Under the pieces are notes generated by a model. The model did not search any database and was not told the origin of the DNA. It saw only the letters and a list, made by a program, of their open reading frames with translations. This document shows positions 8,364 through 52,983 of a DNA stretch of 53,148 bases, piece after piece. Made by a program: the position numbers and the translations under genes. Each line of letters starts with the position of its first letter. The first letter of the stretch is position 1. Source of the stretch: a virus; IMG/VR virus record IMGVR_UViG_3300037104_000199, positions 1-53,148 of that record. One strand, 5' to 3'.

Positions 8364-9374
8364 ATGGTTAAGAAAAATACCCCTATAAATAATCAATCAG
8401 CTATTGATGCGGCCATTTCTCAGATTGAGAAGCAGTTTGGTATGGGCTCTATTATGCGCTTTGGGTCTATGGAAAGGCAGTCTGTAGATGTTATACCTAC
8501 GGGTTCTTTGGCTCTTGATGCCGCATTGGGTGTCGGGGGAATTCCTAGAGGTAGAATAACGGAAATTTATGGGTCTGAATCGGCTGGTAAGAGTACCCTC
8601 TGTCAACATATTCTAGCAGAGGCACAGAAGGCGGGGGGAAAAGTTGCTTACATAGATGTAGAGCAAACATTAGACCCTGCGTACGCAAAAGCGTGCGGAT
8701 TAGATATAGATGAAATGTACATCAGCCAGCCGGATACAGGAGAACAAGCTTTACAAATAGCAGAGCATCTTATTAACTCTGGAGCTATTACTTGTGTAAT
8801 TGTTGACTCTGTTGCCGCACTTTTACCCAAGGCTGAGATTGAGGGGGAGATTGGGGATTCCTATGTAGGTGTTCAGGCTCGTCTTATGAGTCAAGCTCTT
8901 AGAAAGTTAGCAGGAGCAGTCAATAGAACTAATACTGCCTTAATCTTTACTAATCAACTTAGAGAAAAGATTGGTTTTACCCGGGGAAATCCAGAAATTG
9001 TTTCCGGGGGGAAAGCTCTTAAGTACTATGCTAGTGTTCGGTTAGATGTGCGAAAAATTGAAACACTCCTAGTAGGAGACTCTTCTAGTGGCATACGTTC
9101 TAAGGTAAAGGTAGTCAAGAATAAAGTTGCCCCTCCCTTTAGAGTTGCTGAGTTTGATATCACTTTCGGTGAAGGAATTTCGCGCGAAGGGGATATTCTT
9201 GATATAGCTGTAGAGCATAAGTTAGTAGATAAGGCAGGAGCCTGGTACAGCTATGGTGAGACACGAGTAGGCCAGGGTAGGGAGCAAAGTAAGGAATATC
9301 TGCGTAACAACCCAGAGGTCCTTACAGGTTTAGAAAATCAACTAAGACATAAGTTATTTGGAGAGGAGCTTTAG
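8364..9374 (+). CDS. recA: RecA recombinase
   Basis: Strand-exchange ATPase for phage recombination and repair. Walker A is G70-T78 (GSESAGKST), the Walker B strand is CVIVDSV, and the L2 loop region contains TNQLREKIG. The DNA-binding L1/L2 core is bacterial RecA-like rather than UvsX-like. The 336-residue length is slightly short because the C-terminal acidic tail of cellular RecA is reduced. The ATG has AAGGAGACTT upstream, and the gene runs directly into the next small gene (TAG immediately followed by ATG). Confidence 0.97.
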
Positions 9375-14388: not shown

Positions 14389-14691
14389 TTACCTCGTTTC
14401 GATGGGCGAGAGGACGCATCCAAGCTTGTCAGCTAAGGAGCCCGCGATGCGAGCCGTTATCGGGGCCTCGGCGTGCATCCTATCCTGGGCAAGCCACAGA
14501 CCCGAGACAATCAGGCTAATCTCGGCAGCTGTTAGGTAGCAAGCGAATTCGTACTCCCGCGCATGCGCAGTGGGGGTACCGCATGCAGGTAGCCGGGTGA
14601 CATGGTCGAGGCAATGGGGGCCATGCATAGGCCGATCTGGCGCGTCCTGTTCGGACGCGTAAATTCGGTCCAGTAGTGAGGTGGAGTCCAT
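14389..14691 (-). CDS. Unknown protein in GC-rich island
   Basis: 100 residues, with histidines and cysteines clustered at residues 22-37 (MHGPHCLDHVTRLPACG) and a helical second half. AGGAGG precedes the ATG at good spacing. No domain is recognised. Codon use is GC-rich, unlike the phage genes around the island. Confidence 0.65.
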   Translation of the reverse strand: MDSTSLLDRIYASEQDAPDRPMHGPHCLDHVTRLPACGTPTAHAREYEFACYLTAAEISLIVSGLWLAQDRMHAEAPITARIAGSLADKLGCVLSPIETR

Positions 14692-14823
14692 GATCTAACC
14701 TCCTGCTATAAGGGCTGAGGTAGGGTCTAGAGCCTCAATTCTGGGCACGGGCGATTTCTGGGTTTGATTGTTGCGCGCCGATCCTATCGGCTGAGGTTAC
14801 TGATCGCTGGTCGCTGTAGCGTC

Positions 14824-15141
14824 CTAGACGGCCATAGCGGCGAGTAGGGCGTCTAGGTCATCTTGCGTCATACTCTTGACCTTTGCTCCTCGTGTTCCAC
14901 CCTCCACTATGATGGTGCGAGCGGCGAGGTTGACTCCTCGCAAGTCTGCCAGGGTCAACGGGATGGAGATTAGAGGTGCCTTGCCTGTTTCGACGTTGAC
15001 GGCGTTCTGCCGGACGACCTTGCCTTCGTCATCGCGGAAGGACGTTGCCTTGGCATTTGCAACAATGCCAGCAGCGCGAGAAGCAGCGGTAGCGCGGAGG
15101 GGACAGAGCCGGAAGTCAGAGGATCCAGTGAGAATAGCCAT
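14824..15141 (-). CDS. Unknown protein in GC-rich island
   Basis: 105 residues, alanine-rich, starting MAILTGSSDF after GGAGGAATCTCCT. Likely soluble. No family is recognised. Intact reading frame and good ribosome-binding site argue for a real gene; the flanking sequence up to 15600 is non-coding or decayed. Confidence 0.62.
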   Translation of the reverse strand: MAILTGSSDFRLCPLRATAASRAAGIVANAKATSFRDDEGKVVRQNAVNVETGKAPLISIPLTLADLRGVNLAARTIIVEGGTRGAKVKSMTQDDLDALLAAMAV

Positions 15142-15626
15142 AGGAGATTCCTCCAGCCTATGCCCAAAATTGAGACTCTAGACTAGTGCCCTATACCGCG
15201 CGCGGGTACTGATTCCGACGAAGCGTAGGGGGCTATTCGACTTGTTAAGGTGCGCTGGGCCTATACGATCCGGCGCCGACCATTTCGGCGGACCGCGGAA
15301 ACGACTGGGACAAACATACACATAGACTCCGCCGAATGCAATACCTATTTTGAGGCGATTTTGGGCGGGCTTCCCAGCTGTAGCAGGCGTACAGCCCAAA
15401 ATCGCTCCAGGCGACCGAATCCAGAGATTTTGGGTGTACGTGCGTCTGGACAGGATGCGCGCCGTAGCGTGGCCCTACGGTCGTCATGTAGCGGTACCGC
15501 CGGCCGATCCACCGATCGGACACCCCACCGGCTGTAATGCCCCAGGACGATTCTGGGCGTCTCCTACCCTCGGCCCATGCCGGGGCTGGCCGCGTTCCTG
15601 GCCCGCCGAAGCGTTCTCGACGAGTA
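15142..15626. other. GC-rich stretch without a supported gene; inverted repeat inside
   Basis: Several overlapping ORFs exist on both strands, as expected by chance in GC-rich DNA, but none has a ribosome-binding site and recognisable protein features. GATTTTGGGC (15357-15366) and its exact complement (15394-15403) form a 10-bp inverted repeat, and related GCCCAAAAT words recur at 15163 and 15424. Confidence 0.5.
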
Positions 15627-15893
15627 GTGGGCCGCTACAGCCAGATCGAGCCGCTCGCGCCAACGCACCAGACCGACGCCTTCGATTGCGTCTCTGAGGC
15701 CCAATCCACGTGGTTGCGCCGCCACGGTCTGCAAGCTCATCGATCCGATACGTGCAAGGTGTACGTGGTCTGCCGGCGAGATGAACCCGCGGTGGCTGGT
15801 TACTACGCGCTGGCGGCCGGATCCGTAGGCCACGAGACGGCTCCGCCGCGCCCCAGTACCCTCCGGGAATTATCACCTATATGCAAGGAGTGA
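15627..15893 (+). pseudogene. Truncated TacT-like GNAT acetyltransferase toxin
   Basis: The N-terminal third of a GNAT toxin of the TacT/AtaT type, enzymes that acetylate aminoacyl-tRNA. The segment FDCVSEAQSTWLRRHGLQ followed by YVVCRRDEP and VAGYYALAAGSV is the family hallmark. Homology stops near APPR, before the acetyl-CoA-binding motif, exactly where the sequence turns AT-rich, so the gene is cut by the island boundary. No intact antitoxin is visible upstream. Probable start GTG at 15627; almost certainly non-functional. Confidence 0.7.
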
Positions 15894-15946: not shown

Positions 15947-15976
15947 GTAACAGAAACTCAAATGAAAGACGGCTAG
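15947..15976 (+). repeat. GTAACAG-N9-TGAAAGACGG element at right edge of GC-rich island
   Basis: GTAACAG, 9 nt, TGAAAGACGGCTAG. A further GTAACAG lies 11 bp upstream. The TATTAA block is absent. Confidence 0.75.
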
Positions 15977-16013: not shown

Positions 16014-16043
16014 GTAACAGACTTTTATTTGAAAGACGGTTAC
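16014..16043 (+). repeat. GTAACAG-N9-TGAAAGACGG element
   Basis: GTAACAG, 9 nt, TGAAAGACGGTTAC; TAATCA replaces TATTAA at the -23 position. Confidence 0.8.
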
Positions 16044-16139
16044 GACTTTTGCGCGCCCAAAATGGGCTGACAATTCCCTATTCAATAATCCTAGTACAAC
16101 TATGCCCCAAAGGGGGGCATCATAAACATACAAATATCT

Positions 16140-16198
16140 TATTAACTATCTTTCTTTAGACTTTACAAGTAACAGAAATCAAAATGAAAGACGGCTAG
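16140..16198 (+). repeat. Full three-block punctuating element
   Basis: TATTAA, 23 nt, GTAACAG, 9 nt, TGAAAGACGGCTAG. No gene ends here; it is stacked with the next copy. Confidence 0.88.
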
Positions 16199-16320
16199 GC
16201 GTAATTGAGTCTAAAGACTCCGTGCAAAATTCTTACTACCTAACCCCCGGCAAATCCCTATAACTAATTCCCTAGTATAACTATACCCCAAAAGGGGGCA
16301 AATAATACATGTACATAACT

Positions 16321-16379
16321 TATTAACTACATTTTCTTAGTTACTCTATGTAACAGAATTCAAAATGAAAGACGGTTAG
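16321..16379 (+). repeat. Full three-block punctuating element
   Basis: TATTAA, 23 nt, GTAACAG, 9 nt, TGAAAGACGGTTAG. The TAA stop of the KOW-like gene on the minus strand is inside its right end. Confidence 0.9.
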
Positions 16380-16594
16380 CGTTTTATCTGTAAGTCAGCA
16401 GTATATATGGGTATAGGATTATCATCATTTATTTCAGGCGCGAATTGTACATAAACATATTTCCAATTATTATTACCACCAGATACACCTGTAAGAGTCC
16501 CTATACTACTAGGTACTAATTCACCCCCATAATTACTACCAATCCTATCTAGGATATTTACATCTTCCTTTATTCTTACAGTACCACCTATCAT
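16376..16594 (-). CDS. KOW/SH3-like small barrel protein 1
   Basis: 72 residues, start at the ATG behind AGGAGAAAGTCATA and overlapping the stop of the upstream paralogue (TAATG). Pattern: GGTVRIKED near the N-terminus, IGTLTGV in the middle, YVYVQF strand, DLQIKR end. The alternation of short strands with G-x-V/I-x-V/I-K and IGT turns resembles small SH3/KOW barrels. Last gene of its unit; its stop codon lies in the punctuating repeat. Function unknown. Confidence 0.75.
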   Translation of the reverse strand: MIGGTVRIKEDVNILDRIGSNYGGELVPSSIGTLTGVSGGNNNWKYVYVQFAPEINDDNPIPIYTADLQIKR

Positions 16595-16791
16595 TATGAC
16601 TTTCTCCTCATAACTTTTGCGCCCGAAAAAGAAATACAATAACAAGCGTTATCATGATCCATTCTTGCTTCAAATCCACAAGATATACCTACCATCATAA
16701 CTGTACCTACTTTATTTGCGGGGCAAGATTCATGAACACTAATAGTAGTAGTAATAATCCTATCACCAACTCTAAGCTAAGAAGGACGCAT
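16594..16791 (-). pseudogene. KOW-like paralogue with nonsense codon at codon 5
   Basis: The minus strand reads M-R-P-S-stop-L-R-V-G-D-R-I-I-T-T and continues for about 60 codons to a stop that overlaps the next ATG. Paralogues at 18017 and 19211 begin MRPSDL and MRPSEL and end FSGAKV, as this one does, so only the TAG at 16777-16779 interrupts it. No alternative start with a ribosome-binding site is visible. Either a recent nonsense mutation, or translation enters from the upstream gene, whose stop (GCT TAG AGT) sits one frame away and could be passed by a +1 slip. Confidence 0.7.
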
Positions 16792-16987
16792 TATTATCCA
16801 CCTTATACTGTAGTAACCTAAGATAGATATAATCAGTAATTTCGGGCGCAAATTTCACACCAGCATAATGATATACAGGATTAGGGTCCCTTCTAATAAT
16901 AGTTTCAATTATACCTATAGTACCTCTCATTGAAGTTACCTCATACGTATCTTTAACTCTAACAGTCATGCCAATTTCAGGGCGCAT
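16772..16987 (-). CDS. KOW/SH3-like small barrel protein 2 (RPEIGM type)
   Basis: 71 residues beginning MRPEIGMTVRVKD, with GTIGIIET and a YAGVKFAPE strand. The start overlaps the stop of the upstream paralogue (TAATG) and AGGAGT precedes it. The C-terminal dozen residues overlap the interrupted paralogue downstream in another frame. Confidence 0.75.
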   Translation of the reverse strand: MRPEIGMTVRVKDTYEVTSMRGTIGIIETIIRRDPNPVYHYAGVKFAPEITDYIYLRLLQYKVDNNASFLA

Positions 16988-17208
16988 TATTTACTCCTAA
17001 GTACTTGAAAGTCATATGAAGAGAAACACCATCTATAGAGATATGCACTTCCTACAGGTTCCTCAAAAGTCGCCGCAAGAAAGTGTGGTCGTATTCCCCA
17101 ACCACCAATATTACAAGGTATCTCACTAACAGTACCTATACGCCCTCGAAGAAAATCCTTAGAATAAGTATCTTTGATTCTTATCTTGTCCCCAATTTTG
17201 ATTTCCAT
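16987..17208 (-). CDS. KOW/SH3-like small barrel protein 3 (IGDK type)
   Basis: 73 residues from the ATG after GGAGGGACAA; the longer in-frame extension upstream comes from a simple repeat and lacks a ribosome-binding site. Pattern IGDKIRIKDTY, RIGTVSEI. First of a three-gene block (IGD, RPEIGM, RPS) seen three times in the array. Confidence 0.75.
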   Translation of the reverse strand: MEIKIGDKIRIKDTYSKDFLRGRIGTVSEIPCNIGGWGIRPHFLAATFEEPVGSAYLYRWCFSSYDFQVLRSK

Positions 17209-17240
17209 TTGTCCCTCCTGACTACCAATGTAAAGAATCT

Positions 17241-17276
17241 TTGACATTAAGTAAAGTAAACTTGACATTAAGTAAA
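17241..17276 (+). repeat. Two tandem 21-bp repeats
   Basis: TTGACATTAAGTAAA at 17241-17255 and again at 17262-17276, upstream of the IGDK-type gene. They could be regulator sites; no promoter can be made from them. Confidence 0.6.
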
Positions 17277-17426
17277 TTAAGCTCGACAACTACCTTAATG
17301 ACCTAAAAAGGTTAGATACTAACAAATGTATTTACTCTCTATGTGTTTTCTCTTATATAGAATATGTACATCTTTGTTGCCCCCTTTTCTAGAAACTCTA
17401 TAGAACACTTAGTAGAGAAACCCTTG

Positions 17427-17633
17427 CTACTCTTCAGAAGGGGTATTCTCCTTTAGTAAGAGTAATTCCGATGGGTCGAAGATACCACGCGTTCCATCGG
17501 AATCAAATCTAATACTATAGAATGAAGTACTACTAGATGTAATTGTACCAATACCCTTAGCAACATAATAAGAGAAGTATATGCCCTCCTTTACTTTCAC
17601 TTTCCTACCTAGATACTTATCATTAGGTTTCAT
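17427..17633 (-). CDS. KOW/SH3-like small barrel protein 4
   Basis: 68 residues (GRKVKVKEGI, KGIGTIT, SIRFDSDG) with an AAGGAG ribosome-binding site. More divergent than its neighbours and with a glutamate-rich tail. First gene after the punctuating element at 17706-17764; 218 bp of non-coding sequence separates it from the next paralogue. Confidence 0.72.
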   Translation of the reverse strand: MKPNDKYLGRKVKVKEGIYFSYYVAKGIGTITSSSTSFYSIRFDSDGTRGIFDPSELLLLKENTPSEE

Positions 17634-17705
17634 TTAGTTACACTCCTTACTATTACCTGTAATATTGATGCCCCAAAAATGGGCAAGTATTACTTACCTA
17701 TATCT

Positions 17706-17764
17706 TATTAACTGTATTTCTTTACTAGACTTAAGTAACAGAGCATTTATTGAAAGACGATTAA
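17706..17764 (+). repeat. Full three-block punctuating element
   Basis: TATTAA, 23 nt, GTAACAG, 9 nt, TGAAAGACGATTAA. Overlaps the stop codon of the KOW-like gene at 17761. A GCCC/GGGGC hairpin lies just left of it. Confidence 0.9.
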
Positions 17765-17991
17765 TGCTTTATTTGTAAATCATGTACAAATACAGCGATA
17801 TTATTATGAGGTAGGTCACTAAATTTTACATATATAACAGGAGCCCTGCTATGGTTAGTATACATACTAGGGCATCTTACAATAGTGCCTATGGACCCAT
17901 TATACAGTGGACACACACCTATACGTTCTCTGATAAGTACGCCCTCTTTTATCCTTACTGTATCCCCTACTCTTAATTCACTGTATTTCAT
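17761..17991 (-). CDS. KOW/SH3-like small barrel protein 5
   Basis: 76 residues; of two adjacent ATGs the second was chosen because AAGGAG is only one base from the first. Pattern RVGDTVRIKEG, GSIGTIV, VIYVKF, DLQIKH, closest to protein 1 at its C-terminus. Its stop lies in the punctuating element. Confidence 0.75.
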   Translation of the reverse strand: MKYSELRVGDTVRIKEGVLIRERIGVCPLYNGSIGTIVRCPSMYTNHSRAPVIYVKFSDLPHNNIAVFVHDLQIKH

Positions 17992-18016
17992 CATGCTCCT
18001 TCGCAGGTATTACTAT

Positions 18017-18238
18017 TTACCTCTTTCTGACTTTTGCGCCCGAAAATTCCACACAAGTAGGACTAGAACCAGTGTTTAGACTATCAAAAGTAGCATCAAA
18101 TAAAGTCCACCTGCCACTTCTACAAGGAACATACATAACAGTACCAATAGAGCCTATAGGTACAGTCTCTAAAGTAATGTAGGGAAGTCTTTTAGTAGTG
18201 ATAATAGTATCATCTACATTTAGATCACTTGGACGCAT
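18017..18238 (-). CDS. KOW/SH3-like small barrel protein 6 (RPSDL/GAK type)
   Basis: 73 residues beginning MRPSDLNVDDTIITT, middle GSIGTVMYV, end FSGAKVRKR. The start is inside the 3' end of protein 7. One of three members of this subtype. Confidence 0.75.
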   Translation of the reverse strand: MRPSDLNVDDTIITTKRLPYITLETVPIGSIGTVMYVPCRSGRWTLFDATFDSLNTGSSPTCVEFSGAKVRKR

Positions 18239-18461
18239 TTGTTGCCCCATTTCTTTGAACTTGTAATTCTCTAGCATTAAAAGTCTTACTATCAGTATAC
18301 CCAGCCAGTAGAACACTAATAGGGTTTGACATCCAATAGTCACTACTAATCTCAGTAATCTTACCCAAGAGTCCTACCACTAAGCTAGTGTCTGTGTACA
18401 GACCACTACTGCTATGTATACAGGGCTTTACTCTCACCCTCATTCCTACCTCTGGAACCAT
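18225..18461 (-). CDS. KOW/SH3-like small barrel protein 7 (VPEVGM type)
   Basis: 78 residues beginning MVPEVGMRVRVKPC with AGGAGG upstream. Closely related to protein 13 (MVPKVGMSVRLKKC, same length and order of strands), indicating recent duplication. First gene after the element at 18508-18566. Confidence 0.76.
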   Translation of the reverse strand: MVPEVGMRVRVKPCIHSSSGLYTDTSLVVGLLGKITEISSDYWMSNPISVLLAGYTDSKTFNARELQVQRNGATNASK

Positions 18462-18507
18462 TGTAACCTCCTGTAATTATTGCGCCCTAATTAGTATACC
18501 TATAAAC

Positions 18508-18566
18508 TATTAACTGTAAATTCTCAGTGTTGTTAAGTAACAGAACCTATTCTGAAACACGACTAG
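18508..18566 (+). repeat. Full three-block punctuating element, slightly diverged
   Basis: TATTAA, 23 nt, GTAACAG, 9 nt, TGAAACACGACTAG. Here the KOW-like gene at 18547 reads into the element before its stop. Confidence 0.85.
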
Positions 18567-18753
18567 GCTTGAAAACTAGATGACGCTTAAAGTGTACATA
18601 CATTTTACCATCAGGTTTTTTTAGGTAGACTAAGTTAGAACCTGGGGCAGAACCAAAAGACTCTATTACACCTTCTGTATTTATAGGGCAGTAGCTTTCA
18701 TTATAACCTAGACCACCTTTTACTTTTACCCTATCCCCAATCCTTGGTTCCAT
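18547..18753 (-). CDS. KOW/SH3-like small barrel protein 8 (IGDRVKVK type)
   Basis: 68 residues: IGDRVKVKGG, TEGVIESF, VYLKKPDG. Start directly after the stop of protein 9. Its last eight codons run through the punctuating element, in contrast to proteins 1 and 5 which stop at its edge. Confidence 0.75.
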   Translation of the reverse strand: MEPRIGDRVKVKGGLGYNESYCPINTEGVIESFGSAPGSNLVYLKKPDGKMYVHFKRHLVFKPSRVSE

Positions 18754-18981
18754 TTAACTTCCCCGCAATCTTTCTAGGCTATCTGCCCTAAGATCAATCA
18801 TTTCCGAATAACCTTCGGATTGAATCCAGTAGAATACTGTAGAGTCCTGCCTCGTGTGTTCATGACCAAGCTTCTCTTTACAGTTTTGTACTATTACACC
18901 TTTAGTATGTGCTTCTAATTGGGGGTACCTACCATACAGAGTATGCTTATTTCTTACTATTGTTCCATTAGGAATTATCAT
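18754..18981 (-). CDS. Divergent KOW-like small protein 9
   Basis: 75 residues beginning MIIPNGTIVRNKHTLYG with a later TKGVIVQN; length and position match the array, but the sequence is the most divergent and it could be unrelated. Start overlaps the upstream stop (ATGA). Confidence 0.65.
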   Translation of the reverse strand: MIIPNGTIVRNKHTLYGRYPQLEAHTKGVIVQNCKEKLGHEHTRQDSTVFYWIQSEGYSEMIDLRADSLERLRGS

Positions 18982-19214
18982 CTTTGGTGCCCCCTAAATT
19001 GTAGTTCTTTTGCGCAATAATAACCAGATAATCCATTATTATCCCAAGTTACTCTAATAGGCCATTGCCTATGCCAAGGATACTCAAAACCTGGGGAAGT
19101 GTAATCTACTAGAAATCCAGTAATAGTACCTATACTACCTACTACACATTTTCTATAAGGTCTTAATTTATTAGGATAAGAAAGCCTTACCTTCATACCT
19201 AATTCGGGTGTCAT
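18978..19214 (-). CDS. KOW/SH3-like small barrel protein 10 (TPELGM type)
   Basis: 78 residues: MTPELGMKVRLSY, GSIGTITGF, IRVTWDN, KELQFRG. Overlaps protein 11 by four bases. Confidence 0.76.
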   Translation of the reverse strand: MTPELGMKVRLSYPNKLRPYRKCVVGSIGTITGFLVDYTSPGFEYPWHRQWPIRVTWDNNGLSGYYCAKELQFRGHQR

Positions 19215-19426
19215 TTAGCTCTCTTAACTTTTGCGCCACTAAAGAATACACAAGAGTTCATTTTAGAAAAATCCGTCATAGCTTGAAAACAACCATTTCT
19301 ATCAGAACAACAATTACAGGTTACTAGGGAATCAACTGTACCTTCCATACCCACAGGAACTGAGTTAAATACAGACGCTCCTGTAGTTATAATTCTATCG
19401 CCATCTTTTAGTTCAGAAGGACGCAT
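19211..19426 (-). CDS. KOW/SH3-like small barrel protein 11 (RPSEL/GAK type)
   Basis: 71 residues beginning MRPSELKDGDRIITT and ending FSGAKVKRAK. A central CNCCSDRNGC cluster is unique to this copy. TAATG coupling to protein 12. Confidence 0.75.
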   Translation of the reverse strand: MRPSELKDGDRIITTGASVFNSVPVGMEGTVDSLVTCNCCSDRNGCFQAMTDFSKMNSCVFFSGAKVKRAK

Positions 19427-19662
19427 TACTTACACCTTTTCTTAATCTGAAGTCTCCATTGATAAACGCTATCAACTACACCATTATCAAACTGTACAGT
19501 ACATAGGAAATTTCCTACAGTAGTTTCATTAAGCCTCTCAGTATAGGATTCAGTTGGAACAACAGTTCCTTCAGTAAATTTGGGGATTCTACAATACTCA
19601 TTATCTGAGTATCTAGTCTTTATTCTTACTCTGGTACCTACTGGAATTGTATTCTTAGACAT
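19426..19662 (-). CDS. KOW/SH3-like small barrel protein 12
   Basis: 78 residues from MSKNTIPVGTRVRIK; another in-frame ATG lies 24 bases upstream. Neither has a strong ribosome-binding site and translation probably depends on coupling to protein 13, which it overlaps. Pattern VGTRVRIK, TEGTVVP, CTVQFDNG, RLQIKK. Confidence 0.72.
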   Translation of the reverse strand: MSKNTIPVGTRVRIKTRYSDNEYCRIPKFTEGTVVPTESYTERLNETTVGNFLCTVQFDNGVVDSVYQWRLQIKKRCK

Positions 19663-19873
19663 TTTCGCGCCGAAATTGTAATTCATCTAAACGAAAGCCC
19701 TTAATGTCGAAGAAACCTTCTAATTGCACACTTATACCCTCGCTGTTAAAGTAGTAATCTAAACTAGAAATAACCCCCACTAATCCAATAGATAGACTGT
19801 GATCAGCATAGCGACCATCAACGCTATGAGTACATTTCTTAAGTCTAACACTCATACCAACTTTTGGTACCAT
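19655..19873 (-). CDS. KOW/SH3-like small barrel protein 13 (VPKVGM type)
   Basis: 72 residues from the ATG after AGAGAGGTTGATT. Near twin of protein 7. Pattern VGMSVRLKKC, GLVGVISS, ISVQLEG, DELQFRR. Confidence 0.76.
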   Translation of the reverse strand: MVPKVGMSVRLKKCTHSVDGRYADHSLSIGLVGVISSLDYYFNSEGISVQLEGFFDIKGFRLDELQFRRENV

Positions 19874-19875
19874 AA

Positions 19876-20103
19876 TCAACCTCTCTTTATCCAAAGGAAT
19901 TTCTTCTCTACACACTGCCCCCTAAATCCTTCTGGGACCCCATCAAAATGAATATACAAACCTTTTCCGAATACATGTCTTGGGTCACTAAGAGGGTTTA
20001 TACTGAAGGGGCATTGTAAACTTACAATATCCCCTTCAGTACCAGCCTTATAGGTGAATAAATCCTCTTTAAGTTTTACCCTATCACCTAGGTTAATGGT
20101 CAT
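19876..20103 (-). CDS. KOW/SH3-like small barrel protein 14 (LGDRVKLK type)
   Basis: 75 residues from MTINLGDRVKLKED; a longer frame to 20289 runs antiparallel through the next gene and is rejected. Pattern LGDRVKLK, GTEGDIVSL, YIHFDG, FLWIKRG. Start sits directly at the stop of the upstream gene. Confidence 0.76.
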   Translation of the reverse strand: MTINLGDRVKLKEDLFTYKAGTEGDIVSLQCPFSINPLSDPRHVFGKGLYIHFDGVPEGFRGQCVEKKFLWIKRG

Positions 20104-20104
20104 T

Positions 20105-20437
20105 TTAGTAAATGTCCGGGGTAATGTCCTTAGGGCCAAGAGTAACCTTAATGCCACCCATATCGTCCTCATAATCCTCTTCGTCGCCTTCACTAAAATC
20201 AACAAATTCCTTGTAACCAAATCCCTGAGCAGTAATAGTATCGCGAAGACCAAACTCAATCTTAGTTCGGGTACCCAAAACCTCTCCATCAGCTTCTACA
20301 AGGTAGTACGCAACCTTACTTAGAATAAACTGCTCCATTGGAATCTTAGAAGTTACGATGTTATCTCTAACATACTCATCGACCATCTCAAAAACCATCG
20401 GGGGAAAAGTAACCGTAATACGAACCATCTTAGACAT
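20105..20437 (-). CDS. Unknown protein, possibly ribbon-helix-helix-like N-terminus
   Basis: 110 residues, not KOW-like. The N-terminus (MVRITVTFPPMVFEMVDEYV) has the strand-then-helix look of ribbon-helix-helix DNA-binding proteins, which could make it a regulator of the array. The C-terminus is very acidic (SEGDEEDYEDD). The RHH resemblance is visual only. Confidence 0.6.
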   Translation of the reverse strand: MSKMVRITVTFPPMVFEMVDEYVRDNIVTSKIPMEQFILSKVAYYLVEADGEVLGTRTKIEFGLRDTITAQGFGYKEFVDFSEGDEEDYEDDMGGIKVTLGPKDITPDIY

Positions 20438-20438
20438 T

Positions 20439-20861
20439 TTATTGCTCCTTTCTATACATTTTTAGCATTTCAGTAATAAAACTACTATACATATCTTCTT
20501 GCCACTTTGGAAACTCGGCATCCTCAGTAAAGCACTCTTTTACACTGCTATAGAAACAATCAAAAACCTCTATACTGTAGTTAGCATAATTCTCATACTC
20601 AGTAGCCAACTTTCGCATCCAAGGTCGCCACCTATATTTGAGAATAATATCCGTTGAATGGTAGTATTTCCTATGGCAAGATTGGCAAGAGGTTGTTCCA
20701 TACTTGCCCCACAAATCATGGTAGTTGAATAGGCACCTAACTGGCTGCAAGAAACTGTACACTCTATACACTATCTTGGGCAGTTCATAACCCTGCATAA
20801 AATAATATAGCCCCTTTCCCCGCCTAGTAGCTGTACATTTCTTTAGAAAATGGGGCATCAT
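20439..20861 (-). CDS. Unknown basic, aromatic-rich protein
   Basis: 140 residues with many Tyr/Trp/Arg and a CQSCH motif. AGGAGG upstream. First gene after the punctuating element at 20892-20950. No domain is recognised. Confidence 0.65.
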   Translation of the reverse strand: MMPHFLKKCTATRRGKGLYYFMQGYELPKIVYRVYSFLQPVRCLFNYHDLWGKYGTTSCQSCHRKYYHSTDIILKYRWRPWMRKLATEYENYANYSIEVFDCFYSSVKECFTEDAEFPKWQEDMYSSFITEMLKMYRKEQ

Positions 20862-20891
20862 AAGTCCTCCTATATATAGCTACCTATAAAC

Positions 20892-20950
20892 TATTAATTA
20901 ATTTTCTTAGACTGTTTTATGTAACAGCATCAACTATGAAAGACGGTTAC
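20892..20950 (+). repeat. Full three-block punctuating element
   Basis: TATTAA, 23 nt, GTAACAG, 9 nt, TGAAAGACGGTTAC. It lies 27 bp past the stop of the gene at 20978. Confidence 0.9.
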
Positions 20951-20977
20951 GCTGGAGCATACTTAAATGGCTGCCAC

Positions 20978-21205
20978 CTATTCCCCGCCTTCCTTATCTT
21001 GTAGAATCCAATTTACTTTTGACTTATTTAGGATGTTTTCTTGCTGATTTCTTTGAGCCCACAAAAAGTGCTCATCACAATACAGTACTGACCATACACC
21101 TATCTGCATATTGTGCAGAACTACTACATGTGTAGCATCCCTAGAACACTTGTTCTGTAATTCCCAAGACTCTGTAACATACAGATCACATTGAGGAATA
21201 GCCAC
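20978..21205 (-). CDS. Small protein with scattered Cys/His
   Basis: 75 residues from a GTG overlapping the stop of the KOW-like gene upstream (TAGTG). CDLY, CSRD and CDEH could bind a metal. Not KOW-like; unknown. Confidence 0.65.
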   Translation of the reverse strand: MAIPQCDLYVTESWELQNKCSRDATHVVVLHNMQIGVWSVLYCDEHFLWAQRNQQENILNKSKVNWILQDKEGGE

Positions 21206-21414
21206 TACTTCTCACGCAAAAATTGTAAGACTCTGGGGCTGTAATTATAGTGTGCGTCTGGGTAATCATCCCATAAAACAAACCATGTTTGGTCCCCAGC
21301 ATAATTGAAACCAGGCTTTTCTATAATACCTAAAACACCATTCTTACTAGGCTCCGCATAATCATAAGGGTTTGGGGCATTTAATCTAACCCGCATTCCA
21401 ACTTCAGGTTTCAT
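21205..21414 (-). CDS. KOW/SH3-like small barrel protein 15 (KPEVGM type)
   Basis: 69 residues: MKPEVGMRVRLNAP, NGVLGIIEK, WFVLWDD, RVLQFLRE. Its ATG lies at the stop of a truncated relative upstream; GGAGG is at the 3' end of that ORF and serves as ribosome-binding site. Confidence 0.75.
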   Translation of the reverse strand: MKPEVGMRVRLNAPNPYDYAEPSKNGVLGIIEKPGFNYAGDQTWFVLWDDYPDAHYNYSPRVLQFLREK

Positions 21415-21525
21415 TTAGCTCCTCCTACTAAACTGTAAACGGTTTACAAAAACTACAGGATAAAGATGAGAACCTGCTGTGGATTCTCTATCCATCAAAA
21501 CTTTTACTATATAAGTCTCATACAT
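21415..21525 (-). pseudogene. C-terminal remnant of a KOW-like gene
   Basis: A 36-codon ORF (YIVKVLMD..., VFVNRLQFSRR) that matches only the last strands of the family (strand, turn, LQF-basic end). The N-terminal VG..VRVK half is missing and no ribosome-binding site precedes its ATG, so it looks like a 5'-truncated copy or deletion scar at the array's upstream end. Confidence 0.45.
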
Positions 21526-22254: not shown

Positions 22255-22435
22255 TACCTAAATGAGCAACACTCATAACACGATAAACCTTACTGCGCCA
22301 AAGAAGTCTACTAAACTTTTCTTGTCTCCCCCAAGCCTTTGCACAATAATTCTGCATAGCAAGATTACTGAGCATCTTCTGATAGGAGTCAAGCTTCTTA
22401 GTATTACTGCGTAAAGGCTTACTAAGTAGCAACAT
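22241..22435 (-). CDS. Small basic protein downstream of E1-like gene
   Basis: 64 residues, basic and helical. The ATG lies 14 bases inside the end of the E1-like gene. Unknown; it may be an accessory subunit of the cassette. Confidence 0.5.
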   Translation of the reverse strand: MLLLSKPLRSNTKKLDSYQKMLSNLAMQNYCAKAWGRQEKFSRLLWRSKVYRVMSVAHLGSDTW

Positions 22436-23252
22436 TATCCCAACCTACCTTTCCGCGCATATTAACACCATAAGACTCTCCCTTATCAAGATCAAACTGA
22501 AGATCAGTCCACCTGAGAATTTCAATATCTTTTGCTGCTTCATCGCGCAAAGTTTGTGGGACTTCTTTACCCTCATCACGAAGCTTCTCAATAAGAGCAT
22601 AATTCTTATCCACACTAAGGGTGTACTTTCGGTACATCATAAGTGCGGAAAGAATCCACATAGCAGATGCCATATTAGCAGTAATAAGCTGCTCTCCACC
22701 CTCTAATGCAGCAATTGCTGCACAAGTCATGGTAGCTCTATCTGCTCCCTTATTTGAAATTTCTTGATGAAGGAAAGTAAGGACAGGGGTAATATTTTCC
22801 CCGCCCTTTCTCACCCACAATTGACAAGAACCTGTACTAACCTCATTGCCTCCATTAATAACTACAGCGTTATCAAGTGTCAAGCAATGAGACTGAATAA
22901 GAGCCCTAACTGGATAATTATCTACACCAATAAGGACAGTACATCCATCAGTAATAAGCTGATCAATATTGTCCTTACCAAGGTATTCATTGACGGGAAA
23001 AACCTTGTTAGTTTCACTATACCGACTTGCAGAAGCTACGGCCTTATTTGCCTTAATAGCTGACTCATCATATAGCTGCCTATCAAGATTCTTTTCCTCA
23101 ACATCATCACCATCAACAAGAAGCAATTCCCAAGTATTTTGGGCATTACGATAATGGGTTGTAAGGAAGCGGATTAATGGGTCAAGCAAGAAAGACCCGG
23201 TGCCTCCAATTCCCACAAGAACATATTTGTCATTTTCCATATTGCTTTCCAA
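22422..23252 (-). CDS. ThiF/E1-like ubiquitin-activating protein
   Basis: Adenylates the C-terminus of a ubiquitin-like protein. The Rossmann nucleotide-binding loop is G14-I-G-G-T-G19. The Mg/ATP region VDGDDVEEKNLDRQ (46-59) carries the conserved Asp and Arg. A Cys at 177 (MTCAAIAALEGGEQ) sits where PRTRC-type ThiF proteins keep their candidate catalytic cysteine. The start is TTG with AGGAG at six bases, or an ATG four codons later. It directly follows the JAMM gene and is the last core enzyme of the cassette. At 276 residues it is a minimal E1. Confidence 0.88.
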   Translation of the reverse strand: MESNMENDKYVLVGIGGTGSFLLDPLIRFLTTHYRNAQNTWELLLVDGDDVEEKNLDRQLYDESAIKANKAVASASRYSETNKVFPVNEYLGKDNIDQLITDGCTVLIGVDNYPVRALIQSHCLTLDNAVVINGGNEVSTGSCQLWVRKGGENITPVLTFLHQEISNKGADRATMTCAAIAALEGGEQLITANMASAMWILSALMMYRKYTLSVDKNYALIEKLRDEGKEVPQTLRDEAAKDIEILRWTDLQFDLDKGESYGVNMRGKVGWDNVAT

Positions 23253-23253
23253 A

Positions 23254-24474
23254 TTACTCTCCTATGTAATCCTCAACCTCATCCACAGGCTGATTAAGCA
23301 TTGTAGACAATGTTGAAGTTGTTAGAACCTTATCCTTTTCAGAATCTGCTGAGGGATCAATAACTTCCCCCACCATAAAGCTAATAACATAGCCTGCCTT
23401 TTCGCACTCCTTATTAAGCTTCTTAGCAAGGAGTTCAATAGCTTCAGGCCAGTATTCAGGCTTAATCTTTCCGGTACGGACGGACTCTAACCATTTCTTA
23501 GGAACACTTATACCTAACTGCGAAGAGTAAGCACTACCTGACCCTGCAGTATAACCATCATAAGAATCCGGCCAGGAATCTTCATTCCCACCTTGCCAAC
23601 CCTTATACCACTTATTTGCGCGGGACTTATCCAAACCCCAATTCTGATTTGTAGTACTCTTTACAAATTGACCAACTGTTTGAGCAGTAGGCTTCTTAAC
23701 TAGGGAGTACCACCATTCAGGAATTCCAACATCTTCAAGTCCCACAACATCAGCAACCTCTTCAATCTTGTAATTGAAGTTACTTCCGCCAAGGGAAATC
23801 ATTGATGCAAATTCCATCTGCTTATAGTCTGTAACATGCCCCACAGTAATGTGTAGACCATCAAAAGTCTTAGCATCATGTGTATCTGTTCCAGAATGGA
23901 ATGCAGAAAAGACTGGATGGGAATGGACTGATCCTACTAAACTATACCCTGAAGGAATCTTAGTTGCATCAAAAGTATAATCGACACTTGCTCCCCCACA
24001 AATCTGCACAGGAACAAATACCTTGTATTCCTTAGTAGTAGTGTTAAAGAGAAGCATAACCTCTGCTTCCGTCTGGATTCTAGAATAGACGCCCCTAAAA
24101 AAGGAGACAATCTGATTCATGATAGCCAGGGGGATAATCGGGGCATCTTCATAATTATGCCAGAAAAGTCCACCCTTATGCTTAGGATCAACTGTACCTA
24201 AAACAGTGGGATGTTCCTTTGTGGGCATAATTGCTCTACCAAAAGCAAAATGCTTGTAGTAATACCAACCCTGCGCAGTAGGCACAAAATAAGGGCCATT
24301 ATCTGGCTGAGGAAGATCATAAAAGTCCCCATTGAACTTGGTATAAATATCAAGCAATCCTGGGGCTTCAATTACTGCTGCCTCTACAACTTCTAACACA
24401 GTTTCAATTTCCACAGGAAGATGAGTAGCTTCCCCAACAATTTCAACCTTAGGAAGGGTTTTCTTTTTGGTCAT
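23254..24474 (-). CDS. JAB/JAMM metallopeptidase of ubiquitin-like cassette
   Basis: Zinc peptidase fold that trims or removes ubiquitin-like proteins. The full JAMM signature is present: H184-S-H186-P, seven residues, S194-x2-D197, with an upstream Glu in TEAEVMLLF (136/138). Residues 1-120 and the C-terminal 200 residues are outside the catalytic core; the latter contains a glycine/tryptophan-rich stretch and may bind substrate. At 406 residues it is larger than a bare JAB domain and resembles the PRTRC protein A arrangement. Overlaps the upstream small gene by four bases (ATGA). Confidence 0.9.
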   Translation of the reverse strand: MTKKKTLPKVEIVGEATHLPVEIETVLEVVEAAVIEAPGLLDIYTKFNGDFYDLPQPDNGPYFVPTAQGWYYYKHFAFGRAIMPTKEHPTVLGTVDPKHKGGLFWHNYEDAPIIPLAIMNQIVSFFRGVYSRIQTEAEVMLLFNTTTKEYKVFVPVQICGGASVDYTFDATKIPSGYSLVGSVHSHPVFSAFHSGTDTHDAKTFDGLHITVGHVTDYKQMEFASMISLGGSNFNYKIEEVADVVGLEDVGIPEWWYSLVKKPTAQTVGQFVKSTTNQNWGLDKSRANKWYKGWQGGNEDSWPDSYDGYTAGSGSAYSSQLGISVPKKWLESVRTGKIKPEYWPEAIELLAKKLNKECEKAGYVISFMVGEVIDPSADSEKDKVLTTSTLSTMLNQPVDEVEDYIGE

Positions 24475-31010: not shown

Positions 31011-31562
31011 TTAATCAACTATAGTACCTGTAATAAGTTGCCCATCCTCTAGCTTAATGGGGACCTTTTTTGAAAGACTAGGGCACACTGGAGGAATTTC
31101 CTCAAATATAGCCCTTCCTTTGTAAATAACCTCCTGAGAAGGATTCAGAGATTTTAACTTAATCTCCTCACTATTAAAACGCATACCAAAGAAAGATCCA
31201 GCCCTTACCCTAAGTGCTCCAGAAATCCGAGCATCACCATAAATCCGAGCATCACCATAAATCCGAGCATTGCCAGAAATCCGAGCATTGCCATAAATCC
31301 GAGCATTGCCATAAATCCGAGCATTGCCAGAAATCTGGGCATCACCAGAAATCCGAGCATTGCCATAAATCCGAGCATTGCCAGAAATCTGGGCATCACC
31401 ATAAACCCAAGCATTGCCTTCTTGGGAAAGATTACTTTCCTTCTCTACAAACCCTCCCCTAGCTCCTTTACTAATGCTCCCAAAAGTAACAAGGGCTTCT
31501 ACCCTAAATAAGGTCTTTCCCTCAGTAACCTTCGTTTCACTAGTTAGCTTAAACTTAGTCAA
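31011..31562 (-). CDS. Hexapeptide-repeat beta-helix protein
   Basis: 183 residues. Residues about 49-113 are eleven hexapeptides of the form G-N/D-A-R/Q-I-Y/S, the repeat of left-handed parallel beta-helices and related polymer-like proteins (for example YdcK-type). The flanking N- and C-terminal segments are unrelated. TTG start (TTGACTAAG) preceded by GGAAGG and overlapping the upstream stop. At the DNA level the repeat is a near-perfect 18-bp tandem array, so copy number may vary between isolates. It could be structural or carbohydrate-binding. Confidence 0.72.
   Translation of the reverse strand: MTKFKLTSETKVTEGKTLFRVEALVTFGSISKGARGGFVEKESNLSQEGNAWVYGDAQISGNARIYGNARISGDAQISGNARIYGNARIYGNARISGNARIYGDARIYGDARISGALRVRAGSFFGMRFNSEEIKLKSLNPSQEVIYKGRAIFEEIPPVCPSLSKKVPIKLEDGQLITGTIVD
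31216..31413. repeat. 18-bp tandem repeat array inside coding sequence
   Basis: About eleven copies of an 18-bp unit such as ATAAATCCGAGCATTGCC with few substitutions, in frame with the beta-helix protein. Confidence 0.9.
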
Positions 31563-47786: not shown

Positions 47787-50138
47787 CTATAAATCACTAA
47801 AAAGCATATACCTAGGAACCCATTTAACTTCCACTAGTCCTAACCTTCCATTTCTATTCTTAGCTACTATTACTTCCGCTATATCTTCTTCCACGCCCCC
47901 AAATGCCTCACCATAAGATTCCCTATGAAGAAACATTATGATATCTGCTGACTGTTCAATTTCACCAGAAGCTCTTAGGTCTGCCATACCCGGGCGCTTA
48001 TTAGTACGCTCCCCACGCTCATTGGAGGGGCCTCTACTTAGCTGTGAGAGTACAATAACTGGGCATCCTAATTCCTTACCCAAGCCTCTCAATTCTTTAC
48101 AAGCATCCCCAAGAGTATCCACTTTATTACCTGTAGGGAGTTTCATAAGGTGCAGGTAGTCTACAACTATAAGACCTACCTTACCCCATTCATAGAGCAT
48201 TTGCCTTCCAAGGGATGTAATGTAACTTGTAGATACATTAGGTCTATCGTCTACATGGAAGGTTTCCATTACCTTTTCCAGTGATTTATTTGCCCCAGCA
48301 ATATCCGCTACCATACCAGGATTAGCCAGGTAGGTACCCGAACGAATATCTTCGAGAGGTACCTGGGCTTCTCGGGCAAGTAATCTTTCAAAGATTTGCT
48401 CTTTAGTCTGCTCTAAAGAGAAAAATAAAACTGGCCCTGTGTTTACAGCATGCCTAGCAAGATTAACCGCAAAGGCAGTATTATGCGTTGGTATAAAGTC
48501 ATCTGTAATGTACAGATGACTACTATTATCAATCTTAATACACTGGCATTCTTTAGAACCTACAAAATCTATAGAAACTACCTTCCTTGTATGTACCCTA
48601 TTACTAACTCTCCATTTTCTGGTATGCTTTAAAGATGTAACTGGAATTTCCCCATTGAAGAATCTTATGTATAATCTATAGTAAGTTAAAATACTGGTTT
48701 TATCCCTATAAGTATACTTAAGATACTTATGCCCCTCTCGTACCACACCCCCTAAAGAACGTACTAAAGTACAAACATCCTGAGCAAGTTTCTTAGAACC
48801 TGTACAGTAATCTACTATACTACTACCATTAGCCATCCCCCCATCAGTATCTAAAAGACCTTGTAATAACCTCATCCTATTTTCAGGTGTAGAGTACAAG
48901 TACCTTTCAGGAATGAATTTATGTAGACTCCCACAAAGAAGACCTAGTTCCTCTAGGTATTGTTTAGTGTCACTTTGGGTATGGTTATAAACCTTACGTA
49001 CTACATTACTATGCAAACTGTAGGGATTTACTAAGGTATCCCCTTCTGGAAGAAGTTCTAACACTTTGGCCTTTATGTCCTTTTCGGGGTTGCATATATT
49101 CACCATTGAATTTCCCAAGGTACCATCACCCAGAAGAACTCCCAAAAGGTAAGGATCAAGCTTTAGGGGTTCCTCAGAAGGGGTGTAATTTACCCTCCCA
49201 GTTATAGGTAAAATATGGTTGGGATACCCTCCAGAATTTTTTAAACTACCTAGTAACTCCTTGGTTGATTTAACCGACCCCGGAAAATCCCTAAGCCTCT
49301 CGTTCATAGTTTGCGTAAACCACAAATGATCTAAAGAGCACTCGGTAGAAGTACCATCAGATAAAGTTACCTTATACACATCCAAAGGCCCTTGTGGGAA
49401 AACTCCAGTAACATTACAAGCAACCCCATCAGAGCCTATAACCTCATCCCCAACCACTAAACTGCCCATTGGTACAAAACCCTTAGGGGTCAGTACTTTT
49501 GCATCTAAGGGTTGTGCCTTCCCTAAACTCGTGCGGGCGGCAACAATAACCAATCCCTCTAACCTATGGAGAATTAGGTCCACTTCTGTAAGACCTGTAG
49601 TAATTCCTTCTGCGTTCTCATCCACACGATTAACAAGGTTCTTTACAAACTCTTGATAAGCTTCAACGGAAGACTCTCCTGTGTCATCAAGCACTCTTTG
49701 CTTGATAAAGTTTGCGAAGTTATCTTCGAGTTGTTGTAATACTTCTGTGGCATTAGCATTATCTTTGTAAGCTAATTCAACTATATTTTGCCCCAAAGTT
49801 ATTGCTGCTCTAAGCTTAGCTTTATCCTTAACTGTTTCAGCATAAACTATAGCATTAGATATACTAGGAACTAGCCTATCACTATCTGCTACTAAGTTAG
49901 CAAAGTACTCCTTAGACCTATCCGACAGTTTCTCCGCAACAGTAAGGGAGTCCGCAGCACCTTGGAGGTCGCATATAACATGGTATATTTCCTGGTGCTC
50001 ATTCTTATAGAAATCACTAGGCTGTAGTATCTCAGAGATTCTAGGTAAAAGCATGGGGTCTGAAAGTATCGCGACCAACACTGCCTTTTCTATATCCTGG
50101 CTGTAGGGTATCTTTGTTATTTCTGGGTTAATGGTCAT
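47787..50138 (-). CDS. dnaB: DnaB-type replicative helicase containing an intein
   Basis: 783 codons. After intein removal about 437 residues: N-terminal DnaB domain (1-150) and RecA-like motor. Walker A (ARTSLGK, then T) is interrupted by the intein after Lys207; Walker B region is KVGLIVVDYLHL, and QLSRGPSNERGERTNKRP, with the DNA-binding motif GEIEQSADIIMFLHRE, follows. Unwinds the phage fork with the adjacent primase/ssDNA-binding proteins. Overlaps the upstream gene by four bases (ATGA). Confidence 0.95.
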   Translation of the reverse strand: MTINPEITKIPYSQDIEKAVLVAILSDPMLLPRISEILQPSDFYKNEHQEIYHVICDLQGAADSLTVAEKLSDRSKEYFANLVADSDRLVPSISNAIVYAETVKDKAKLRAAITLGQNIVELAYKDNANATEVLQQLEDNFANFIKQRVLDDTGESSVEAYQEFVKNLVNRVDENAEGITTGLTEVDLILHRLEGLVIVAARTSLGKAQPLDAKVLTPKGFVPMGSLVVGDEVIGSDGVACNVTGVFPQGPLDVYKVTLSDGTSTECSLDHLWFTQTMNERLRDFPGSVKSTKELLGSLKNSGGYPNHILPITGRVNYTPSEEPLKLDPYLLGVLLGDGTLGNSMVNICNPEKDIKAKVLELLPEGDTLVNPYSLHSNVVRKVYNHTQSDTKQYLEELGLLCGSLHKFIPERYLYSTPENRMRLLQGLLDTDGGMANGSSIVDYCTGSKKLAQDVCTLVRSLGGVVREGHKYLKYTYRDKTSILTYYRLYIRFFNGEIPVTSLKHTRKWRVSNRVHTRKVVSIDFVGSKECQCIKIDNSSHLYITDDFIPTHNTAFAVNLARHAVNTGPVLFFSLEQTKEQIFERLLAREAQVPLEDIRSGTYLANPGMVADIAGANKSLEKVMETFHVDDRPNVSTSYITSLGRQMLYEWGKVGLIVVDYLHLMKLPTGNKVDTLGDACKELRGLGKELGCPVIVLSQLSRGPSNERGERTNKRPGMADLRASGEIEQSADIIMFLHRESYGEAFGGVEEDIAEVIVAKNRNGRLGLVEVKWVPRYMLFSDL
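48480..49517 (-). other. Class 3-type intein with DOD homing endonuclease, in DnaB Walker A
   Basis: Residues 208-553 of the precursor. It starts with Ala instead of Cys/Ser and ends His-Asn before a Thr extein residue. Trp follows the block B His (DHLW), Cys lies in block F (CQCIKID) and Thr is the +1 residue: the WCT set of class 3 inteins, which splice via a block F branched intermediate (Tori and Perler). Two LAGLIDADG-like motifs (LLGVLLGDG, LLQGLLDTDG) are present, so homing is possibly active. Confidence 0.87.
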
Positions 50139-51745: not shown

Positions 51746-51799
51746 ATTATACCACAGTTTGTGGAACACACAATACTACACCATGGGGTGTACTGTCAA
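51746..51799 (-). promoter_or_regulatory. Tandem leftward promoters of the replication operon
   Basis: Two overlapping sites: TTGTGT, 16 bp, TATAAT (51746-51773; ACTGTGG before -10), and TTGACA (51794-51799), 18 bp, TATTGT. The latter's -35 includes the stop codon of the upstream gene. Confidence 0.75.
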
Positions 51800-52983
51800 G
51801 CAGGGATGAGGTAGCCGGGTGCGTCGATCAGAAAGTCGGTCGAAGCCAAGCTGCCATTGTGAACCACGACGGAGCCGCTGACGATGGCCGCGATGAAGCC
51901 ATTGGCTCGGGTGTCGTGGGGCGGGAAGTTGATTGAGGAGTATGAGCCCGTCGGGACGACCGGCGTAACGGACACCCAACCAGCAGCAGCCTCATTAGTA
52001 ACGGTCAAGTTGCCAACAAGCCCAGTGGCATTGGCGGGGATACCTAGAAGTCCCGCTATCTGGACGACTCGGGACTCACCGGGTGCGAGCGGACGGGCAG
52101 CCGTGCCAACATTGACCAAGGCGCGACTATCACACATTCGGGGGGGCATAGTAGTAAAGAGTACAATAACTGAGGGCACGGTTACCTCCTGAATTATAGG
52201 TTTAATAGGTTGAGGGCCAGTCCATGTTTTGCCAGTGACATACTGGTAGCTGTCAATGCAGGCAATTTGGCGCTCATAGGGCAGAGCCGGCCACTGGAAA
52301 TCCCAAACACAGACAACTAACTCATCTATAGTGCCGAAGCCTTTGGCGTTGATTGAGACTTGATATCCCCAGGTCTTGATTGAGTTGTCGGTAGCGGTGT
52401 AACTGCCTCCGGCGATACCATGACCGCCAACGTTTGCGCCGCGCGCACCCGTATACCAGACCTTGTTCGGGTACTCCATTGCGGCGTAGACCACGACTCC
52501 GACGCAAACCGAGCCGAACTCCGCGACCGCTTGTTTCATGCCTTCGTCGGTGATCGGATAGTCGCCGTAGAACAGAAGCTTTGAGCCACCGAACCGCTCC
52601 GGATGGTTCTGTGCCCATTTGAGCGCTCCGAGAATATTCGAGCCGGGGCCAGGGGCGCTGGACGCGGCGTAGGGGATGCCATTGTAGTCGCAGTAATTCC
52701 GGACGACCTGCGCCGGGGTAGTGTGAGTGACTGGGACGCCGAGAGCCTTCGCGCTGATAACGCGGTCTTCTTCGATCATCTCGAAAACACAATCGCCCCA
52801 CGCGGTGCCGAGGACTTCCGTCCCGCCGTTGCCATACATGTTCGTGTCGGCGGCGTCTAACTCAATGTTGTGGACTTCAACCGGCCGGGCCGGTGCGGCA
52901 CCCATCGGGATTATGGCGATGGCGGACTTATTCTCTTCGCGGGGGAGCCTCCCTAATAGGGGCCTACCCTCAATAACTTCCAT
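51796..52983 (-). CDS. Papain-like cysteine peptidase with actinobacterial wall-type C-terminal domain
   Basis: 395 residues from the ATG behind AGGAGGG. Residues about 40-260 look like a papain-like fold: GTAWGDC with Cys65 and GGHGIAGGSY with His188. The last ~95 residues (PLAPGESRVVQIAGLLGIPANAT..., VSVTP, SSINFPPHDTRANGF, DAPGYL) match the beta-sandwich module common at the C-termini of secreted actinobacterial proteins. GC-rich codons unlike the neighbours indicate transfer from a host. No signal peptide. Endolysin, virion-associated peptidase or adhesin are all possible. Confidence 0.65.
   Translation of the reverse strand: MEVIEGRPLLGRLPREENKSAIAIIPMGAAPARPVEVHNIELDAADTNMYGNGGTEVLGTAWGDCVFEMIEEDRVISAKALGVPVTHTTPAQVVRNYCDYNGIPYAASSAPGPGSNILGALKWAQNHPERFGGSKLLFYGDYPITDEGMKQAVAEFGSVCVGVVVYAAMEYPNKVWYTGARGANVGGHGIAGGSYTATDNSIKTWGYQVSINAKGFGTIDELVVCVWDFQWPALPYERQIACIDSYQYVTGKTWTGPQPIKPIIQEVTVPSVIVLFTTMPPRMCDSRALVNVGTAARPLAPGESRVVQIAGLLGIPANATGLVGNLTVTNEAAAGWVSVTPVVPTGSYSSINFPPHDTRANGFIAAIVSGSVVVHNGSLASTDFLIDAPGYLIPA

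Follow-up and report, generated by a model that had tools for sequence, protein, structure and literature searches.

Why would a phage carry some 16 small, diverged genes of one type side by side, and what would their products do? The question is raised by the virus record IMGVR_UViG_3300037104_000199 of IMG/VR, a linear sequence of 53,148 bases that is probably a fragment of an uncultured phage genome. We analysed the whole stretch, which is referred to below as the window. A first-pass annotation, made by a model from the letters of the sequence, had described a tandem array of about 15 paralogous genes for small KOW/SH3-like barrel proteins on the minus strand. The array is the subject of this study.

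The array comprises 16 candidate open reading frames (ORFs) of 60–78 codons, all on the minus strand between positions 16376 and 21414 (m01–m16; Table 1, coordinates include the stop codons), and 15 of them share common ancestry. Because a profile of all members recognizes its own members trivially, the score of each member was taken from a profile of the fifteen others. The background consisted of 775 other ORFs, from the window and from locus L001, and 1,600 shuffled member sequences. Fifteen of the 16 members scored above all background ORFs and all shuffles, with values from 14.5 to 35 bits, which confirms an array of paralogous small genes at the position and on the strand originally proposed. 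The remaining ORF, m10, reached 0.9 bits, a score that 55 background ORFs and 254 shuffles also attain. Judged by its sequence, m10 appears to be an array gene of similar size that should not be counted as a family member. The all-against-all comparison by pairwise BLASTP agrees with similarity beyond chance among the 15 members and links several groups: m08 with m14 (50% identity, E 4e-19), m02 with m12 (44%, E 1e-11), and m11 with m16 and m01 with m06 (both with E of about 1e-7). The own reading frame is the best of the six by codon use in 14 of the 16 ORFs. Inside the operons the genes are tightly packed, with gaps of −14 to 22 bases for most of them, and m16 is set apart from the other members by three unrelated ORFs. 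The first-pass annotation was right about the density of the family, but its count of about 15 genes of 66–79 codons has to be replaced by 16 ORFs with the sizes given above, of which m10 lacks support from its sequence and m16 is separated.

The members can be divided into a core of twelve and subfamily B (m02, m07 and m12). The core conserves the first strand (G-x-x-V/I-R/K-h-K), the second strand (G-T/V-I/V) and the last strand (L-Q-h-basic). The position after V/I in the first strand is R or K in all twelve core members, compared with 13% of basic residues overall. Subfamily B is without the basic residues of the first strand and ends in FSGAKV followed by basic residues. The G-x-x-V/I strand and the G-T/V-I/V turn of the original description are family-wide, but its LQ-basic ending is missing in subfamily B. 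The segments between the strands differ in length among the members, with 10 to 21 residues between strands 1 and 2 and 22 to 40 residues between strands 2 and 5. In SH3-like barrels, these inter-strand loops usually make the contacts.

The structure of m11, predicted by AlphaFold2 with the core alignment, consists of five strands, the last of which is preceded by a short 3-10 turn (predicted local distance difference test, pLDDT, 80.3; predicted template modelling score, pTM, 0.70). The elements follow in the same order in the model of m12 from subfamily B, which has a lower confidence (pLDDT 72.6, pTM 0.59). One representative of each subfamily was thus predicted to form the same five-strand barrel, and not unrelated folds. 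In Foldseek searches the two models matched mostly SH3-like barrels (PetP, CPH domains, YorP, PWWP, SH3 and KOW); none of the matches reached E 0.001, as is usual for a fold this small. The highest VIA-align Z score was that of the N-terminal barrel of Hpy99I (9.2), followed by PetP (8.3), Spt5 KOW6-7 (7.7), SH3 (7.4) and YorP (7.3). Among solved proteins in the PDB, the family profiles matched HERC2 (E 1e-4, profile A1), thiocyanate hydrolase (E 4e-4, profile A3), PsaE (E 0.03), nitrile hydratase, PetP and YorP (E 0.77); the profile of subfamily B alone found no match among the solved proteins. An SH3-like barrel fold is well supported for the family by the two models together with these structure and profile matches.

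The assignment to KOW in the strict sense is not specifically supported. By structure, KOW domains (Z 7.0–7.7) are level with the other SH3-like barrels PetP, SH3 and YorP. The family profile found none of the NusG, Spt5 or ribosomal KOW chains in the PDB at E 1 to 5, and no member matched the Pfam KOW family (PF00467) at E 1. KOW6_SPT5 matched one member with E 0.026, at 14.9 bits against a cut-off of 27. Of the KOW/SH3-like barrel proposed at first, the SH3-like part holds. The structure search showed that many small uncharacterised phage proteins share this fold. Small phage proteins of DUF4314 (PF14192) are among the structure-library matches, and m13 resembles this family with E 0.027, below the curated cut-off; the best score, from one member, was 14.9 bits against the cut-off of 27, and a direct search of the window with DUF4314 gave no hit. 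The SH3-like fold is thus common in phages, and it is the array that is unusual.

From the alternation of the strands we infer that the conserved basic residues of the first and last strands form one exposed patch. Conserved basic strand residues would suit nucleic-acid or transcription/translation modulators with KOW- or Tudor-like domains: the residues would bind RNA, DNA, the ribosome or RNA polymerase, and each paralogue would tune a different step or promoter. The isoelectric point (pI) is at least 7.9 in 13 of the 16 members, the Z scores of 7 to 7.7 to Spt5 KOW domains fit such a role, and the MotB protein of phage T4 provides a precedent (PMC7827196). However, the net charge of the members ranges from −2 to +6 and some of them are acidic, including m01 (pI 4.7) and m16 (pI 5.7). 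Subfamily B is without the basic residues in question on the first strand, and the sequence searches of Pfam and the PDB found no KOW family match. We regard such modulators as the next most probable explanation after the one favoured below, but as doubtful. MotB is made early, binds DNA and alters the interaction of H-NS with DNA; its N-terminal domain is predicted to be KOW and its C-terminal domain is an OB fold (PMC7827196). Its similarity to the array lies in a predicted SH3-like/KOW domain in the product of an early phage gene, but it has two domains, whereas the members have no second domain, and the family profile does not recognize it (0.7 bits).

The best solved matches, PetP, PsaE, the nitrile hydratase beta subunit and the thiocyanate hydrolase alpha subunit, have the same barrel and suggest another role. 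The members might belong to a complex encoded by the phage, as its subunits or accessory domains, either self-assembling or attached to a larger enzyme in the manner of PetP, PsaE or the nitrile hydratase beta domain, since accessory SH3-like subunits are the nearest solved relatives, both by profile and by fold. These relatives are cellular subunits of larger complexes and do not occur as tandem phage arrays, and several of the matches span mainly the first two strands. No partner enzyme was recognised in the operons, and a symmetric assembly is disfavoured by the low identity among the members. We consider this the least probable of the explanations, and very unlikely.

The array genes are accompanied by a repeated promoter-like element, CGTCTTTCAT-N8-CTGTTAC, which occurs ten times with at most three mismatches, compared with 0.13 occurrences expected. 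Seven of the ten copies are located at or beside the array, and all of these have the orientation of the genes. Most copies near the array are followed by TTAATA and an ATAGGTA-like block. Three copies are followed by a similar G+C-rich leader hairpin of the GCCCC-loop-GGGG type (16271–16330, 16090–16140 and 17656–17700, minus strand), and two of these three have no clear gene behind them. The copy with leader hairpin at 16271–16378 belongs to the repeat family D3, with identities of 64–77%. No known RNA family was found within the array. The word GGCGCAA was considered as a special recurrent site and dropped, as it is not outstanding among over-represented words.

The gene order is kept in two blocks, m08-m07-m06-element and m03-m02-m01-element. 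The last members of the two blocks, m06 and m01, are sisters (shuffle z 13.8), and m08 and m03 overlap into the following subfamily B gene, m07 and m02, respectively, in the same relative frame. The conserved order, the sister pair and the shared overlap frame suggest the duplication of a three-gene block with its element, and the partial growth of the array by such block duplication best explains the sequence. The nearest relative of m08 is m14 and not m03, so the blocks must also have been reshuffled or have diverged unevenly.

Not all copies are intact. m02 contains an in-frame TAG at codon 5 (16777–16779), and its other 60 codons still resemble subfamily B, without a common start codon ahead of the conserved part. 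Among 25 larger genes of the phage, 8 use TAG as an ordinary stop codon, which makes it probable that m02 is silent, either as a pseudogene or as a silent allele. The 36-codon ORF next to m16 scores 5.9 bits with a profile of the C-terminal half, a value attained by 7 of 2,000 shuffles and 3 of 774 ORFs, and may be a fragment of another family member. A remnant at about 16040–16062, read by eye, is similar to the end of a gene of subfamily B (GGGCGCGCAAAAGTCGTAA). The suggestion that the locus is a recombining reservoir thus gains some support from the block duplication, the broken member and the decayed remnants. Alternatively, the array would be decaying or near-neutral: early-region genes would be copied by unequal recombination between promoter elements and would then drift and disappear, and few members would be functional. 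The stop in m02, the possible truncated copy, the subfamily B remnant and the promoter copies with no genes behind them point in this direction. However, the coding signal is best in the own frame of nearly all the ORFs, and the frames have stayed open, with conserved core positions, at pairwise identities of 25–50%. Open frames, own-frame coding signal and a core conserved despite the divergence require selection, which makes near-neutral turnover unlikely, although not as unlikely as accessory subunits.

The explanation that we favour, with a probability of about one in two and ahead of the three alternatives discussed above, is that the array encodes early host-takeover or counter-defence binders built on one SH3-like scaffold. 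Densely packed small genes behind a repeated promoter-like element and with no structural or replication role are typical of the early host-takeover regions of large phages, and no structural or replication function was recognised among the array genes. Inhibitors of bacterial machinery and immunity are abundant among the small early proteins of phages, which are usually unrelated to each other. According to this explanation, the array would have arisen by duplication, partly of multi-gene blocks with the promoter-like element, followed by divergence. The element would drive the early transcription of the array genes. The barrel would serve as a rigid scaffold from which the variable loops bind a particular host or defence protein or a nucleic-acid complex, and the bound target would be blocked or redirected. 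The conserved basic residues of the first and last strands may form a contact surface common to the members, and the targets would change through duplication, loop divergence and loss. We put forward more tentatively, as somewhat less than an even chance, that the array is a dedicated binder repertoire, in which the scaffold was duplicated about 16 times under shared early promoters and the loops of each copy were tuned to a different target.

Among the functions suggested in the first-pass annotation, counter-defence or host takeover fits best by precedent, that of MotB and that of Nip (phi3T_120) from the Bacillus phage phi3T. Nip binds and inhibits the SpbK TIR NADase; it has 279 amino acids and is encoded by a single gene in the early region, with two SH3-like domains and an HU-like dimerization domain (PMC11984713). 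Nip and the array have in common that they are of phage origin and contain SH3-like domains, and Nip comes from an early region; the difference is that the members are single domains of 60–78 amino acids. With the family profile, the second of the two SH3-like domains in Nip reaches 12.5 bits, more than any of 5,000 shuffles of that domain or of 9,250 unrelated ORFs. Other SH3-like barrels reach 13 to 26 bits with the same kind of profile, so the match to Nip indicates broad superfamily membership and no specific link. The comparison of the family with Nip by hhalign gave a probability of 1.6%, which is no support. YorP (PDB: 2heq), a protein of the Bacillus prophage SPbeta, is a small standalone SH3-like barrel like the members (Foldseek template modelling score 0.61, VIA-align Z 7.3; the profile E of 0.77 is not significant). 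Unlike the array, YorP is an uncharacterised protein encoded by a single gene.

Several points weigh against early binders. The profile recognizes SH3-like barrels generally, with HERC2, PsaE and YorP scoring as high as or higher than Nip, and it does not match the first SH3-like domain of Nip. Early expression is deduced from the sequence. Neutral divergence of an SH3-like fold would also produce variation in the loops. Finally, the searches described below found no close relative.

A megablast search with 8.5 kb around the array against 50,697 phage records returned no near match, and tblastn searches with m14 (E 1) and with m06 and m13 (E 10) gave nothing credible. A tblastn hit in the Xanthomonas phage SAC was rejected, as it runs antisense to the annotated gene of that phage. 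In viral contigs, pattern scans with the alignments of subfamily B and of m08/m14 detected no relatives, and the m08/m14 pattern found none in prokaryote genomes. The family was not found in 25 phage records that share RecA or ThiF with the window, nor in 400 genomes of the phylum around a Chloroflexi genome, where one hit with E 5e-4 was at chance level. The scan of viral contigs for the promoter motif gave only coincidental matches, mostly to one recurring sequence. The neighbour search with ThiF identified one distant locus from which the family is absent, and that with JAB identified no locus. No comparable paper on tandem SH3-like arrays was found in the open-licence literature, and one may exist elsewhere. 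Small early proteins had been described before, as had one SH3-like counter-defence protein, and the SH3-like fold is known and common in phages. An array of about 16 diverged copies was not met in the collections and papers searched; these searches reach only moderately distant relatives and do not prove rarity.

Table 1. Array members, neighbouring ORFs and promoter-like elements. Bits are leave-one-out scores.
Feature	Position	Strand	Description
Promoter-like element	15947..15975	-	further copy
Promoter-like element	16014..16062	-	preceded by remnant resembling a subfamily B gene end
Promoter-like element and leader hairpin	16090..16197	-	no clear gene behind
Promoter-like element and leader hairpin	16271..16378	-	downstream of m01; repeat family D3
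m01	16376..16594	-	72 amino acids; 17.5 bits; sister of m06 (E 1.4e-7)
m02	16594..16776	-	subfamily B; in-frame TAG; remaining ORF 21.3 bits
m03	16772..16987	-	27.1 bits; 3' end overlaps start of m02
m04	16987..17208	-	22.2 bits; ATG start at 17208 behind AGGAGG
m05	17427..17633	-	15.0 bits; divergent member
Promoter-like element	17735..17763	-	before m05 (operon start 17633)
m06	17761..17994	-	30.0 bits
m07	18017..18238	-	subfamily B; 14.5 bits; 41% identity to m12
m08	18225..18461	-	35.0 bits; nearest m14; 3' end overlaps start of m07
Promoter-like element	18537..18565	-	before m08-m06 (operon start 18461); followed by TTTACA-N16-TATACT
m09	18547..18753	-	30.4 bits; C-terminal codons overlap a promoter-like element copy
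m10	18754..18981	-	similar-sized array gene; score within background
m11	18978..19214	-	28.4 bits; predicted structure
m12	19211..19426	-	subfamily B; 15.9 bits; predicted structure
m13	19426..19662	-	27.0 bits; sub-threshold DUF4314 match
m14	19655..19873	-	32.4 bits
m15	19876..20103	-	17.3 bits
110-amino-acid gene unrelated to family	20105..20437	-	same operon as m15; no family match
140-amino-acid gene unrelated to family	20439..20861	-	first gene of main operon
Promoter-like element	20921..20949	-	followed by TTAATAGTTTATAGGTA; before m15-m09 operon (operon start 20861)
m16	21205..21414	-	27.6 bits; outlying member; nearest m11
36-codon ORF	21415..21525	-	possible 5'-truncated member; C-terminal half only

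The 110-amino-acid protein encoded near the head of the main operon has, by eye, a ribbon-helix-helix-like start (VRITVTF and then a helix), and might regulate the repeated element. Adjacent minus-strand genes for a ThiF/E1-like protein and a JAB-domain protein (22422–23252 and 23254–24474) lie just upstream of the array. Their Pfam matches (E 1.3e-17 for ThiF/E1-like and E 1e-5 for Prok-JAB) suggest a ubiquitin-type E1 plus deconjugase pair, and the E1-E2 models of PADLOC match the ThiF/E1-like protein weakly.

Genes for a DnaB helicase, a primase, a ribonucleotide reductase, an RNA ligase and a RecA/UvsX recombinase were recognised in the record. The middle of the DnaB-like helicase (residues ~197–577; gene at 47787–50138, minus strand) matches terminase profiles, and the simplest account is that the helicase is apparently interrupted by an intein that is also present in the matched terminases. 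The product of the recA gene (8364–9374, plus strand) is nearest to RecA proteins of Chloroflexi metagenome bins, with identities of at most 71%; this similarity hints at a Chloroflexi host and is not proof of it. Two islands with sharp borders and no recognised genes (14400–15890 and 51750–52940) have a G+C content of ~58%, compared with ~39% for the phage, and are insertions or assembly chimeras; the island at 14400–15890 had no match among plasmids. An 18-base tandem repeat unit is present in ~11 copies at 31219–31436, within a minus-strand ORF of 183 amino acids that matches PHROGs whose function is not known.

If the array is such a binder repertoire, the phage would possess a whole set of inhibitors that share one fold and are directed against host defence or takeover targets. 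The array would then be a compact natural library, with a constant scaffold and varying loops, that could reveal which positions set the choice of target. It would also provide a sequence signature with which other phages could be screened.

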